The translations under genes were made by a program, and so were the position numbers. A stretch of 36,643 nucleotides of DNA from NCBI GenBank assembly GCA_002733135.1, contig NVUJ01000007.1:1-36643 (forward strand), read 5' to 3'. Shown in pieces: positions 11,169-29,270 of the stretch; position 1 is the stretch's first letter; every line of letters starts with the position of its first letter. The notes beneath the pieces are model-generated. The model made no database searches, was not told where the DNA came from, and saw only the letters and a program-made list of their open reading frames with translations. The DNA is from Cycloclasticus sp. GTDB lineage: Bacteria > Pseudomonadota > Gammaproteobacteria > Methylococcales > Cycloclasticaceae.

Positions 11169-11963
11169 TTAGTGCGTAGGGATAACTATACCGCGATTAC
11201 TAAAGTCTTCAATAATGCTTAGCCCGCCCTGTATAACGACATCGGGGTTTGGGTGCTGCATCTCGTTGGCAAGGTTGGTGAGTATTTGCAGACAAGTTAA
11301 GTTTGACTTTTCAGAGAGCTTTTCCATCAACGCATGTGTCATAGAATTGATTTCTAAAAATCCTACTTTGTTATCCATATCTCTATAAACAACAAGGTAA
11401 GTAGGCTGCTTACCTGGCTTCTTTGGAATGAAATCGGGTGAAATCCTGTGTACTGGGTATTGGTAAGCGAGGGGCATAGCAGTACTAGCGACGGTCAAAA
11501 TTTCATTTAGTGGCTGCGTAATAGCAGGCTTTGTTATTTTTGAATCTTCGGCAACCGAAACAAATAATTCAGTCCATTCATAATGTGCAAGCTCTAGAAG
11601 AAAGGCAAAGTCATCTTGTGATTGTGCGTTTTCAATCCGCTCTGTTTGTAAATACTGAATAAATTCTTGTGATACTTCTGAAAAGTACGGACTATGGCAT
11701 GGGTGATGAATAAAAAAATCGCGACACATCTGTTCCCAGCGTTCATCAGTTGAGATTTTTTTTAAGACAGGGAATGCATCACCGATGATATTAGAGATGT
11801 TTGTAAATAGTAAATCGCGGTACATATTCATGCGCCGTTCATCAATATCAGTTGGCTTTGGAGAATTTTCCGGATCGCGAATATATTGCGTGAACTTGTG
11901 TTGCGTCTGGATAAAGGAGGGTGTGTTATCCTGTTGCACGTTTTTGTTCTTGCTTGGGGACAT
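11169..11963 (-). CDS. hvfC: HvfC/DUF2063 partner protein for RiPP maturation
   Basis: Partner of the MNIO enzyme HvfB. DUF2063 proteins bind the peptide precursor and hand it to the enzyme. The N-terminal half (about 17-115) is helical with the family pattern RRMNMYRDLLFTNISNIIGDAFPVLKKI. The C-terminal half is a second domain with PTYLVVYRDMDNKVGFLEINS. The chosen ATG (11963) gives 264 residues and overlaps hvfB by 38 bp. An ATG at 11999 would add 12 residues and a 74-bp overlap. Neither start has a clear ribosome site, so the exact N-terminus is open. It is the last gene of hvfABC; no DoxX gene follows. Confidence 0.88.
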   Translation of the reverse strand: MSPSKNKNVQQDNTPSFIQTQHKFTQYIRDPENSPKPTDIDERRMNMYRDLLFTNISNIIGDAFPVLKKISTDERWEQMCRDFFIHHPCHSPYFSEVSQEFIQYLQTERIENAQSQDDFAFLLELAHYEWTELFVSVAEDSKITKPAITQPLNEILTVASTAMPLAYQYPVHRISPDFIPKKPGKQPTYLVVYRDMDNKVGFLEINSMTHALMEKLSEKSNLTCLQILTNLANEMQHPNPDVVIQGGLSIIEDFSNRGIVIPTH

Positions 11964-12780
11964 GGTTTGATTGAGCTTGATGAATAATATCCACTTCATC
12001 TAGTAAATCTGCTAGTGGTGGAATGTTCAGGTCTCTTTCCAATAAGGTTGGAAAAACACCAAAATGCTCGTAGGCAGAATCGAGTAGTTGCCAGACTGGG
12101 TCAATGACGGTTGCGCCATGAGAATCGATAATAATATCTTCTGCTTCGTGGTAATGTCCGGCAATATGAGCATAGCTGATGCGTTCGCCGGGGAGTTGTT
12201 TCATAAATTCTTCAGCGTTGTATTTGTGATTAACGCTATTCACATAGATATTATTGATGTCGATTAGCAACTTGCAATCGGCCTGTTTAAGAACAGCATT
12301 AATGAAATCAATTTCGTCCATTTCTTTACCGGGTGCGGCGTAATAGGACGCGTTCTCAATGGCGATTTGTTCGCCTAATATATCCTGTACTTGCATAATT
12401 CTATCTGCCACGTAATCGACCGCTTCTTCTGTGAAGGGGATGGGCATAAGGTCATACATATGGCCACCGTCACTGCAATAAGTGAGGTGTTCAGTATAAA
12501 TTTTGATTTGGTGCTGTTTTAAAAAATCACGTATGTCACGAACAAAATCAACGTCAATTGGGTCTGGGCTACCTAAACTAAGTGATAAACCATGTGAAAC
12601 AAAAGGGAACTGTTCGGTTAATTCACGGAATTGTTTGCCGTATTGGCCGCCAAATCGTATCCAGTTTTCTGGGACGCATTCGTAAAAGTCTACGTTGGTT
12701 TCAGGGTTCTCAGATAGCGGGCCAAGAAAGGCCCGCCTTAATCCGAGACCTGCCCCAGTAACGGGAAAGGTGCTTTTCAT
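11926..12780 (-). CDS. hvfB: MNIO (DUF692) multinuclear iron oxidase HvfB
   Basis: Predicted multinuclear non-haem iron-dependent oxidative enzyme that modifies cysteines of the HvfA peptide. In the HvfABC family EGKC cysteines become oxazolone/thioamide copper ligands. The 284-residue protein has the DUF692 TIM-barrel layout with likely iron ligands in order: His63 (VSHGLSLSLGSP), His98 (YTEHLTYC), Glu142 (AIENASYY), Asp174 (LLIDINNIYV), His205/His209 (YAHIAGHYHE) and Glu248 (LLERD). It starts 15 bp after hvfA and overlaps hvfC at its end, indicating one operon. The ligand assignment is by family analogy. Confidence 0.92.
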   Translation of the reverse strand: MKSTFPVTGAGLGLRRAFLGPLSENPETNVDFYECVPENWIRFGGQYGKQFRELTEQFPFVSHGLSLSLGSPDPIDVDFVRDIRDFLKQHQIKIYTEHLTYCSDGGHMYDLMPIPFTEEAVDYVADRIMQVQDILGEQIAIENASYYAAPGKEMDEIDFINAVLKQADCKLLIDINNIYVNSVNHKYNAEEFMKQLPGERISYAHIAGHYHEAEDIIIDSHGATVIDPVWQLLDSAYEHFGVFPTLLERDLNIPPLADLLDEVDIIHQAQSNHVPKQEQKRATG

Positions 12781-12795
12781 ACTAATGTGGCGCGC

Positions 12796-13167
12796 TTACT
12801 TATTAGCTGCACATTTGCCTTCAGCGCATTTGCCTTCGGCGCATTTAGCTTCAACAGCTTTTTCAGATGCTTTAGCTGCAGCACATTTACCTTCAGCACA
12901 TTTACCTTCAGCACATTTAGCTTCTTTAGCTTTTGCAGCAGCTTTATCAGCACCACATTTGCCTTCACCACATTTTGCTTCGGCTTTCTTGTCGCCGCCG
13001 CACTTGCCTTCGCCACACTTGCCTTCTGCAAGTACCATGTAGCCTGTTTCTAGTTCAGTTGCGCCAAATGGGTTTGTGTCAGCGCTTACTGCAGGAGCAA
13101 ATGCCATAGATGTTACGAATGCTGCGCCAATGGCGGCTACTAATGGTTTTTTTGTAGAGTTTTTCAT
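12796..13167 (-). CDS. hvfA: HvfA-type RiPP metallophore precursor
   Basis: A 123-residue secreted precursor. Residues 1-29 form a Sec signal peptide ending AVSA. A leader with NPFGATELETGYMVLAE follows, the conserved pattern of HvfA peptides. The core holds ten cysteines (51, 56, 66, 71, 85, 90, 95, 109, 114, 119), all in EGKC or EAKC units separated by Ala/Lys linkers; the first four are followed by Gly, the last six by Ala. In this family the cysteines are converted by HvfB/HvfC into copper-binding groups. AAGGA precedes the ATG. hvfB follows after 15 bp. Antisense frames through the repeats are artefacts of the repeated codons. Confidence 0.92.
   Translation of the reverse strand: MKNSTKKPLVAAIGAAFVTSMAFAPAVSADTNPFGATELETGYMVLAEGKCGEGKCGGDKKAEAKCGEGKCGADKAAAKAKEAKCAEGKCAEGKCAAAKASEKAVEAKCAEGKCAEGKCAANK
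12808..12924 (-). repeat. Duplicated 45-bp block in hvfA core
   Basis: Bases 12880-12924 and 12808-12852 encode the same 15 residues (EAKCAEGKCAEGKCA) and differ at six positions, all third-codon changes that keep the residue. A 27-bp linker separates them. This is an internal tandem duplication of a three-cysteine module, with selection holding the peptide sequence. Confidence 0.9.
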
Positions 13168-13222: not shown

Positions 13223-13360
13223 TTTAGTACCGACAAGAGCTGACCGGTTAACTATATGCGATTTAATAGACCATGCAAAGTTAAAAAAACTTACAGACTT
13301 TTTTGCATGACGGTATTTACATTACATAGCTTAGGTCGCCACGCATTAACTGAGGCTGAA

Positions 13361-26859: not shown

Positions 26860-27405
26860 TTAATCTAATGTTAAGCCTGTTTTGGCGAGAATTTTCGCCC
26901 CGCTGAGTAAACCGATTTGCCTGTCGATGATGTTGCCTTGCGGGTCAATAATAACGGAATAAGGTAACGCGCCAAGAAGATTGCCGTATTGCTTTGCTAA
27001 TTCGATACCATGAATGTCAGCGATAAGGTTGGGGTAATTCATGCCCATTTCCATAGCAAATTGGTCAACGGATACTTTATCGTCTATAGCAACGCCTATA
27101 AATTGCAAGTTTGATGAGCGATATTGGTTTTGTAGCTCAATAAATTCAGGGATTTCTTTACGGCAAGGTGTGCACCAAGTGGCCCAAAAGTTTAATACGA
27201 TATATTTCCCATCCCACTCTTTGATGTTGCGTTGTTGACCATGAAGGTCGGGTAACGAAAATTCAGGGCGCGGTGAAACAGCGCCTAAAGCTTGCTTGAT
27301 AGTTTGGGCGTGTGTAGATGTTGTTTGCTTTGTGTCAAAAAAACTCGCGCTGATGGCGGCAACGACTAAAACAAGGCCAATAAATAGATATGTATATTTA
27401 CTCAT
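26860..27405 (-). CDS. TlpA/ResA-family membrane-anchored thioredoxin
   Basis: Periplasmic thiol-disulfide protein of 181 residues. It has an uncleaved-looking N-terminal anchor (YLFIGLVLVVAAISA) and an AhpC/TSA-like thioredoxin fold with the active site WCTPC at 77-81 (LNFWATWCTPCRKEIPEF). PYSVIIDP supplies the cis-proline region. It probably receives electrons from the DsbD encoded just upstream, with which it overlaps by 4 bp. Clients could be cytochrome c haem ligation or copper-site assembly; this is not decided by sequence. Confidence 0.9.
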   Translation of the reverse strand: MSKYTYLFIGLVLVVAAISASFFDTKQTTSTHAQTIKQALGAVSPRPEFSLPDLHGQQRNIKEWDGKYIVLNFWATWCTPCRKEIPEFIELQNQYRSSNLQFIGVAIDDKVSVDQFAMEMGMNYPNLIADIHGIELAKQYGNLLGALPYSVIIDPQGNIIDRQIGLLSGAKILAKTGLTLD

Positions 27406-29270
27406 TGTTTGACGGCGTAAATTTGCTGCAAAAAAGCATCAGCGGGCATATAGCCAATTACTCTACGTTGTGAAACCTCACCTATATCGGGTTTAAAAAA
27501 CAAAATAGCAGGTGGGCCAATAAGTGAAAAAGATTTAAGCAGCGCTTTGTTTTCATCATCATTTTTCGTTACGTCTGCTTGTAATAACATGACGTTTTGT
27601 AAGGCAGATTGTACGTTAGGGTCAGAAAAGGTAAAGGCTTCCATTTCCTTGCAGGAAACGCACCAGTCAGCATAAAAATCGAGCATGACCAGCTGGTTAT
27701 TTTTTGTGGCGGTATTAAGTGACGCAGTTAATTCACTAAGCCCTTTTATGCGCTGAAAATTTAAGGCGTGTTGTTGAGTGCTGCTTTGTGGATTATTAAA
27801 GTTTGCTAACGGTTTAAAGGGGTTGGTTCCGCCAGATGCGGCGCCAACTATTAACATGATGCCGTAAATTAAGAAAATAAGCCCAAAGCCTTTAGATAAC
27901 TTTTGCCAACCTGTCGCGTTAGAGCCCAATTGATCAATAGCTTTTAGGTAAATTGCGCAGATGATGAGCAGGCCAGCCCAAAGAATAAGGGTTACTGCTG
28001 AAGGTAAAATGCGCTCCATTAACCAGATGGCAACGGCGAGTAACAAAACGCCGAAGAAGTATTTAATCGGTTCCATCCAATGCCCAGCTTTAGGCAATAT
28101 TTTGCCTGCCGAAGTGCCGATGATAACGAGAGGAATACCCGCGCCAATGCCGAGAGAAAACAGGGCAAAACCGCCTAAAACGGCATCGCCAGTCTGGCCG
28201 ATATAAATCAATACGCCAGCCAATGGTGCGGCAACGCATGGGCCAACGATTAAGGTAGATAAAACGCCCATAACGGCGCTACCCCATAAGGAGCCGTGTT
28301 TTTGGTGCTGCGATAATTTCGATAATTTACTTTGCAGGGTAGCGGGTAGCTGTAAGTCGTATAGTCCAAACATCGATAAGGCTAGCAATACGAAGATGCC
28401 GCTAAAGGCACTTAAAATCCAAGGGTTCTGAAAGGTTGCTTGTAAGTTGTCGCCAAACAACCCCGCTAAAATGCCAAACAAGGCGTAAGTAAAAGCCGAG
28501 GCAATCACATAACTCAGTGATAGATAAAATGCTTTTCGTGTTGATAGCTCTTTGCCGTGACCAATAATAATGCCAGATAAAATAGGTATCATTGGGAAAA
28601 CACAAGGCGTAAATGATAGCAGTAACCCGAAGCCTAGGAAGGTTAAACAGGTAATTAACAGGGTGCTGCTAATCAATGAATTCGCAATGTTATCTTGTTC
28701 GGAAATATCCGGTGTCATAGGGGTTTGTGAGACAGTAGTATTGTTCGAAGTAGTGGGTTTCAGAAATAGCGTGACGACTTTATTCATCGGTGGGTAACAA
28801 ACGCCAATATCAGCACAACCTTGAAAAGCAACATCAATTGTTATGTCGGTAGGTGCGCTAAGGGGTTTAGTTAGTGTTTGCATTAACGTGAGGTCGCCAT
28901 AATACACGAGGGTGTCGCCGAAGGTTTCATCGTTGTGAAGCTTCCCAGATGGAAAGTTGAGACGGGTTAGTTCAAGCGTTTTTGGCTTAATAAGTGTTGT
29001 TTTAACTTTGTCTTGATACAGGTAATAACCATCTGCAATACGCCAATGTAGAACGATTTGTTGTTCGTTGTTTACCTCAGCAAAAAAACTAAAGGCTTGC
29101 TCTGGCTCAAGTAATTGATTTGATGATGTAGGGTTGCCGCCAAATAAATCACTGAGTGCATCTATGGGGTTGGTGTTTATTAGGTTGTCATCCTGTGTTG
29201 CATAGCTCGCCTGAGATACAAAAAGTAGGCAGAGGCTGATAAGCAAAGTGTGAATTAGAGTTTTGTACAT
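27402..29270 (-). CDS. dsbD: Thiol:disulfide interchange protein DsbD
   Basis: Moves electrons from cytoplasmic thioredoxin across the inner membrane to periplasmic thiol proteins. The 622 residues have a signal peptide (about 1-24), an N-terminal alpha domain with Cys152 and Cys158 (GCADIGVCYPP), an eight-helix core with Cys223 (TPCVFPM) and Cys345 (GPCVAAPLAG), and a C-terminal thioredoxin domain with WCVSC at 536-540. All three cysteine pairs are intact. It overlaps the downstream TlpA-like gene by 4 bp, a likely donor-acceptor pair. Confidence 0.96.
   Translation of the reverse strand: MYKTLIHTLLISLCLLFVSQASYATQDDNLINTNPIDALSDLFGGNPTSSNQLLEPEQAFSFFAEVNNEQQIVLHWRIADGYYLYQDKVKTTLIKPKTLELTRLNFPSGKLHNDETFGDTLVYYGDLTLMQTLTKPLSAPTDITIDVAFQGCADIGVCYPPMNKVVTLFLKPTTSNNTTVSQTPMTPDISEQDNIANSLISSTLLITCLTFLGFGLLLSFTPCVFPMIPILSGIIIGHGKELSTRKAFYLSLSYVIASAFTYALFGILAGLFGDNLQATFQNPWILSAFSGIFVLLALSMFGLYDLQLPATLQSKLSKLSQHQKHGSLWGSAVMGVLSTLIVGPCVAAPLAGVLIYIGQTGDAVLGGFALFSLGIGAGIPLVIIGTSAGKILPKAGHWMEPIKYFFGVLLLAVAIWLMERILPSAVTLILWAGLLIICAIYLKAIDQLGSNATGWQKLSKGFGLIFLIYGIMLIVGAASGGTNPFKPLANFNNPQSSTQQHALNFQRIKGLSELTASLNTATKNNQLVMLDFYADWCVSCKEMEAFTFSDPNVQSALQNVMLLQADVTKNDDENKALLKSFSLIGPPAILFFKPDIGEVSQRRVIGYMPADAFLQQIYAVKQ

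Follow-up and report, generated by a model that had tools for sequence, protein, structure and literature searches.

The closest described systems to the operon analyzed here belong to the EGKCG-type captophorins, the group of oxazolin, fontiphorin, and gonophorin. Oxazolin is the product of HvfABC in Haemophilus influenzae (PMC13419390), where a precursor with a signal sequence and six cysteines in three AEGKCGEGKCG units shares one operon with a multinuclear non-heme iron-dependent oxidative (MNIO) enzyme, a PME1 partner, and a DoxX-like gene, hvfX. Fontiphorin is the product of FonABC of Fontimonas thermophila, a minimal three-gene cluster with seven EAKCG and EGKCG sites (PMC13097082), and marine Microbulbifer carry a comparable cluster, mmrA-C, with a variable number of EGKCG units holding 5–8 cysteines (PMC12538549). 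Here we analyze a related operon, hvfABC, on a 36,643-nucleotide stretch of a Cycloclasticus sp. genome (assembly GCA_002733135.1, contig NVUJ01000007.1; the whole stretch is hereafter the window). We consider it very likely to encode a captophorin of the EGKCG type, probably under the control of an extracytoplasmic function (ECF) sigma factor.

Cycloclasticus is a marine oil degrader. Its hvf operon has in common with that of oxazolin the EGKCG repeats and the pairing of MNIO enzyme and PME1 partner, together with a putative signal sequence, but its precursor has ten cysteines, six of them in Cys-Ala, and no DoxX gene was seen in the operon, both DoxX matches of the window genome being on other contigs. 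With the fontiphorin system it shares the minimal three-gene cluster, a combination of EAKCG with EGKCG sites, a three-site fragment, and Cys-Ala sites, which FonBC accepts; FonB has Phe250 where the Cycloclasticus enzyme has Leu251 (PMC13097082). The features of the locus are as follows.

12796–13167, minus strand: hvfA, encoding a 123-aa precursor with 10 cysteines that scores above the NF050137 cut-off
13081–13167, minus strand: putative HvfA signal sequence, Sec-type, residues 1–29, assigned by eye, with cleavage expected after AVSA
13027–13080, minus strand: HvfA leader DTNPFGATELETGYMVLA, residues 30–47, with an NPF...GY pattern recognized by eye
12799–13026, minus strand: HvfA repeat core, residues 48–123, with four Cys-Gly sites and then six Cys-Ala sites arranged as two triple blocks of 15 residues
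11926–12780, minus strand: hvfB, encoding an MNIO enzyme of 284 aa with Leu251 where Phe is usual
11169–11999, minus strand: hvfC, encoding a 276-aa DUF2063 and RRE-like partner of PME type 1
13267–13295, minus strand: predicted ECF-sigma promoter TGTAAG-N17-GGTCTA, from motif alignment and genome scans
13251–13279, minus strand: sigma-70-like promoter TTTGCA-N17-TATAGT, a rival or second promoter overlapping the ECF-type one

An hvfABC operon at 11169–13167 had been proposed in the original prediction, and the three genes are indeed there, with curated models matching all three proteins. HvfA matches NF050137, the HvfA family of repeated E-G-K-C-G units, in three stretches (56.7 bits, cut-off 19.5); it is a member of this family and not of the narrower equivalog NF050188, where it falls below the cut-off (58.3 bits, cut-off 95), a score that pulls the other way from the captophorin assignment. 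A Pfam search of HvfA gave no match up to E 0.1. By eye, its N-terminus combines positive charge, a hydrophobic stretch, and AVSA, and the NPF...GY leader pattern, or its SPF and GPF forms, is present in most of the listed related precursors. HvfB scores 433 bits against NF003818 (cut-off 360), matches the Pfam family MbnB_TglH_ChrH, and stays below the equivalog cut-offs for BufB (NF050167, 261 bits, cut-off 310), MbnB (TIGR04159, 42 bits, cut-off 325), ApyH, and ChrH. The predicted DUF2063 partner was recovered as such (NF050145, 290 bits, cut-off 142; DUF2063, PF09836; NGO1945_C, PF22106). Sequence relatives of HvfB and HvfC include, respectively, 3BWW (E 9e-70) and 3DEE (E 1.5e-8), which PMC13097082 names as MNIO and PME1 structures. 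No DUF2282 or BufA2 precursor match was found among the hvf operon proteins with NCBIfam and Pfam models, and no second MNIO gene was found in the window genome (83% complete), which gives one match, hvfB. A gap of 15 nt separates hvfA from hvfB, and hvfB and hvfC overlap by 74 nt when hvfC is counted from its first ATG; because the HvfC family match begins only at residue 32, the true start may lie further in.

The claim that the MNIO enzyme has intact ligand residues held up as well: H63, H98, E142, D174, N176, N177, H205, D219, H221, E248, and D250 are invariant in an alignment of 107 HvfB loci (which includes repeats of the same genomes) and are candidate ligand and base residues. Ligands of comparable type are listed for VcMbnB (PMC8888699). 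Mapped by hand via the 3BWW alignment, D219 and H221 correspond to D242 and H244 of H. influenzae HvfB, and N176 or N177 to its N175, all three of which are described as essential there (PMC13419390). From neighboring residues described in PMC13097082, a match set without aligning the FonB sequence, D250 should correspond to the FonB base D249, Leu251 to FonB Phe250, and R15/R16 to FonB R15/R16.

The operon is real, well beyond chance, since the precursor model matches 16 of the 18 genus genomes and 31 of 61 genomes searched overall, the window genome included. An HvfB relative at 77–100% identity was found in 15 of the 18 (again including the window genome); of the others, G002 holds an HvfB fragment where a contig ends, and in G001 and G006 the only MNIO relatives are distant ones (33–37%; G, C, and L numbers denote our genomes, contigs, and loci, G000 being the window genome). 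The closest named loci are those of Cycloclasticus, uncultured Piscirickettsiaceae, and one Methylococcaceae metagenome-assembled genome. With nth upstream in all 15 full loci and hemL downstream, within the available flank, in 13, the operon looks vertically inherited, and recent horizontal arrival was rejected on the basis of these conserved neighbors.

Family models and the literature on relatives back the reading of the product as a modified, probably copper-binding peptide, and it is from the characterized relatives that we infer modification, export, and copper binding. By this analogy, HvfC would help to present the precursor, and HvfB, through a mixed-valent di-iron centre and O2, would convert each Lys-Cys to 5-thiooxazole, with a change of −4 Da per Lys-Cys and about −40 Da if all ten react; PMC13097082 corrects the oxazolone/thioamide assignment and gives 5-thiooxazole as the modification. 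The peptide would be exported by Sec and would then bind and buffer excess copper, as Cu(I), in the periplasm.

Upstream of hvfA, an alignment of 15 genomes reveals a block, reading TGTAAGTTTTTTTAACTTTGCATGGTCTATTAAATCGCATATAGTTAA in the window, that is much more conserved than the DNA around it. The predicted promoter TGTAAG-N17-GGTCTA lies 99 nt from the hvfA start codon, and the motif stands before hvfA in 15/15 genomes with a full HvfB locus; the G002 copy has two mismatches. Genome scans for TGNAAG-N17-GGTCTA returned 61 exact sites in 18 genomes, vs. 10 for the reversed pattern, divided among hvfA (15), an ECF sigma gene (18), msrP (7), bufferin operons (2), and other positions (19). Seven of eight such other sites inspected (three from the window genome, five from elsewhere) were inside or antisense to genes or without a following frame start of at least 130 aa; sites of this kind were rejected as regulon members. 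One exact motif lies ~90 nt before dsbD in a single genome, G009 (L293, G009:C13:80861); the window has its own dsbD at 27402–29270.

The same exact motif precedes the ECF sigma gene in all 17 genomes where the gene was found. That of the window genome lies outside the window, at C13:107056 (G000:C13:107027–107565, L210), with GGTCTA running right up to the earliest possible start codon, which means that either the gene starts further in or its message is leaderless. Two tandem copies of the motif stand before the sigma gene of G001 (L289, G001:C7:22031–22100). The partner of the sigma gene in the window genome is a 233-aa protein with a DUF3379 match (70.7 bits, cut-off 33.2), a single hydrophobic stretch (residues 79–97) that might cross the membrane, and H-X3-C-X2-C, which forms the core of the ZAS motif described in PMC7907618.

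Two further kinds of operon carry the motif in relatives. Among 14 genomes with msrP, it stands at a fixed place before the gene, exact in seven, one base off in three (G007, G012, G003), and two off in three (G015, G002, G001); as a control, the best site came within two mismatches in 10 of 140 random stretches from the same loci, some of which may hold a true site. MsrP and MsrQ of G011 were confirmed by NF003767 and NF003831. The motif also precedes bufA2 in all four genomes inspected (exact in G012 and G015, one off in G008, two off in G006); the operon of G012 was searched with the BufA2 and BufB models, and those of G008, G015, and G006 resemble it by eye. In G012 and G015 (L205, L212), the BufA2 bufferin operon has two tandem precursor genes.

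ECF control of such operons is already known in kind, because of the Caulobacter sigma-F and H. influenzae RpoE2 regulons. The targets of sigma-F, YedY (MsrP) and two operons with DUF2282, DUF692, and DUF2063 genes (PMC3511200), resemble those of the predicted Cycloclasticus system; sigma-F differs in its promoter, GTAACC-N16-CGAA against TGNAAG-N17-GGTCTA, and in NrsF, listed with six membrane segments where the Cycloclasticus DUF3379 protein has one likely span. RpoE2 controls MsrAB and MtsZ, and an hvf-like COG3767/COG3220/DUF2063/DoxX operon is strongly RpoE2-dependent under HOCl (PMC7907618, which likens this regulon to that of Neisseria meningitidis SigE). RpoE2-HrsE thus likewise joins an ECF sigma factor with a ZAS-type anti-sigma factor, periplasmic methionine sulfoxide reductases, and an hvf-like operon, but with MsrAB/MtsZ instead of MsrPQ and with a 67-aa cytoplasmic anti-sigma factor instead of a DUF3379 protein with a likely span. 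Since the promoter motif recurs before the ECF gene, msrPQ, and BufA2 operons, hvfABC is probably part of a regulon for envelope stress comparable to the Caulobacter and Haemophilus ones. We infer from the motif that transcription probably depends on the ECF sigma factor encoded elsewhere in the genome, which would be held by the DUF3379 protein acting as a zinc-type (ZAS-like) anti-sigma factor; envelope oxidative or metal stress would induce the operon through this pair, and in relatives the same sigma factor probably drives msrPQ and the BufA2 operons. Such a switch would explain how an EGKCG operon is controlled without an adjoining regulator gene and, if true, would be another sigma/anti-sigma pair tying these operons to methionine sulfoxide repair, beside those of Caulobacter and Haemophilus. 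Nothing on a sigma factor with a DUF3379 partner in such a role was found among the literature matches listed, and no paper mentioning DUF3379 turned up in the literature searched. Sigma genes are described as occurring in Buf1 and not Buf2 clusters, and a few EGKCG clusters as having oxidored_molybd or ferric-reductase genes (PMC12452194). Relatives of the Cycloclasticus ECF, MsrP, and MsrQ were found near the hvf loci in 0/81 sequences, the window included. A DUF3379-like frame lies near the hvf locus of a Chromatiaceae metagenome-assembled genome (L043:5607–6296), with no ECF relative in the stretch examined.

Cysteine content was compared across 75 distinct closed precursors collected from 112 sequences (L001–L111 and the window), which were chosen as close relatives and several of which share a genome; cysteines were counted from the leader onward, and precursor frames without at least three E/D/Q/A-x-K-C units were left uncounted. 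The ten cysteines of the window HvfA (residues 51, 56, 66, 71, 85, 90, 95, 109, 114, and 119) all fall in the repeat region, within four EGKCA, three EGKCG, two EAKCA, and one EAKCG units. The median count in the sample was 10 and the range 3–16 (at least 10 in 43/75, more than 10 in 32/75), and 23 precursors mix motif types. Up to 58 cysteines, in a Pseudoalteromonas, are reported for a family of ~2,000 (PMC12452194). An unusual cysteine number was accordingly rejected, the count of the window precursor being the sample median.

What does stand out is the tandem arrangement of the Cys-Ala sites, which make up six of the ten. Any Lys-Cys-Ala was found in 11/75 precursors and the tandem KCAE-x-KC in five, all from Cycloclasticus, with four such tandems in the window HvfA. 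At the DNA level, the pattern E[GA]KCAE[GA]KC occurred in 2/369 genomes of the class, namely the two Cycloclasticus genomes that this sample contained, and in 1/398 genomes of the phylum, namely the window genome, the sole one of its genus there; the Cys-Gly version of the pattern occurred in 89/369 class genomes, both Cycloclasticus included. The two samples share genomes, and an exact DNA pattern is blind to other spellings of the repeat. Tandem Cys-Ala repeats are thus unusual and confined to Cycloclasticus in the samples searched.

Of the 107 aligned loci, 93 have Phe, 13 (from six genomes) have Leu, and one has Asn at residue 251 of HvfB, which directly follows the catalytic Asp; the Asn belongs to the HvfB of L020, an order-level relative. 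The corresponding FonB Phe250 was modeled near Lys3 and Gly5 of the substrate (PMC13097082). Sixteen genus genomes could be scored for this residue (15 full genes plus the G002 fragment), with complete precursors in 15 and the G002 precursor cut by a contig end. Cys-Ala occurs in six of the seven Leu251 genomes, the exception being G015, and in none of the nine with Phe251 (Fisher value 0.0009, which is not a probability, as the genomes are related). In an HvfB tree of the 15 genomes plus three outgroups, built with residue 251 masked, 6/15 inner branches lack resolution; the branches with good support require the residue-251 label to have changed at least twice, and G011 (Leu, Cys-Ala) and G016 (Phe, Cys-Gly only) come out as sisters at 100/98. 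The HvfC tree also supports this pair (100/99). The nth tree, mostly without resolution, forces one change only and does not show the pair.

Several findings count against ECF control of hvfABC in the form proposed above. The ECF gene has one TAA inside the match in both G016 (L261) and G003 (L272), G016 has msrP without the motif before it, and no msrP match was found in the window genome (83% complete). Three of the five exact sites in the window genome (C13:82290, C16:30969, C23:29397) precede no frame start of at least 130 aa. In other genera the exact motif stands before hvfA in 0/50 loci (20 further loci had no scorable precursor); the looser pattern TG-N-AA[GC]-N16-18-[CG]GTC does so in 18/50, 14 of them Pseudoalteromonas, vs. 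1/50 on the other strand and 0/50 for the reversed pattern. The hvfA promoter also overlaps the sigma-70-like pair TTTGCA-N17-TATAGT, partly conserved in the alignment by eye, and contains a dyad, AAGTT-N5-AACTT (within 13251–13300), kept in most of the 15 genomes; together these may point to a second promoter or an additional regulator. Taken further, the whole conserved block would be a sigma-70 promoter with a dyad operator for a repressor or activator. Conservation does run on past GGTCTA, and G012 has changed the dyad on both sides (AAGAT/ATCTT), although the hexamer pair itself is weak evidence when taken alone, with nine such pairs in the stretch vs. 5.4 expected. We regard this explanation as unlikely, since the two ECF-type hexamers, again 17 bp apart, are also found before the ECF gene (17/17) and, within two bases, before msrP (13/14) and the BufA2 operons (4/4), where the spacers differ from that of hvfA. 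Because of the overlapping pair and the dyad, we nonetheless hold the ECF regulon to be probable and put it no higher. The shared motif also bears on what the peptide is for. Copper binding alone does not separate buffering from acquisition, and Cycloclasticus symbionts are reported to use copper-dependent hydrocarbon monooxygenases; even so, a methanobactin-like peptide for copper acquisition, in place of buffering or stress defence, seems to us very improbable, given that HvfB belongs to the HvfB/BufB branch and scores far below the MbnB cut-off, and that the promoter motif is common to msrP in relatives.

The remaining alternatives concern the repeats themselves. It had been proposed that ten cysteines and a mixed motif set would make the mature product distinct from known HvfA products. 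The rarity of Cys-Ala elsewhere in our samples speaks for this, but the count is the median, nearly a third of precursors mix motifs, and G007 has the same ten-cysteine layout as the window precursor. Moreover, EAKCG and Cys-Ala versions are known FonBC substrates: natural FonA contains EAKCG, an EAKCAEGKCA variant was accepted by FonBC in vitro, and Ala was the sole replacement tolerated at position 5 in the double-variant panel described (PMC13097082). We therefore consider a distinct product very improbable; hvfABC is an ordinary member of a large known class, and its interest comes from the regulon prediction and the covariation of Cys-Ala with Leu251. We regard this covariation as suggestive, not as shown to be causal. 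We lean toward neutral changes inherited together, with Leu251 and Cys-Ala functionally unlinked: the scorable genomes are 16 from one genus, G015 combines Leu251 with no Cys-Ala, lone Cys-Ala sites stand beside Phe enzymes in eight loci outside the genus, and wild-type FonB, with Phe at this position, accepts Cys-Ala (PMC13097082). Pulling the other way are the repeated label changes on the HvfB tree and the sisters G011 and G016, which differ in both traits. A functional link is rather doubtful in our estimation, and so we offer only tentatively the idea that in one Cycloclasticus branch the MNIO pocket and the peptide co-adapted (Phe251 to Leu, Cys-Gly to tandem Cys-Ala) under a stress switch shared with MsrPQ. 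If this were true, Ala would flank the thiooxazoles of the resulting captophorin, which may differ in copper affinity or aggregation. The covariation offers a natural experiment on substrate choice by MNIO enzymes, a question that PMC13097082 approached by mutation.

Two smaller observations concern the repeat DNA. We take an antisense 115-aa frame (12695–13042), which overlaps the repeat, to be a by-product of it. Within the precursor, two 15-residue triple blocks (residues 82–96 and 106–120) differ at 6/45 bases, all of them third codon positions, and the block is present once in G010 and G011, which suggests that the two blocks of the window arose by duplication of the block that is single in those genomes.

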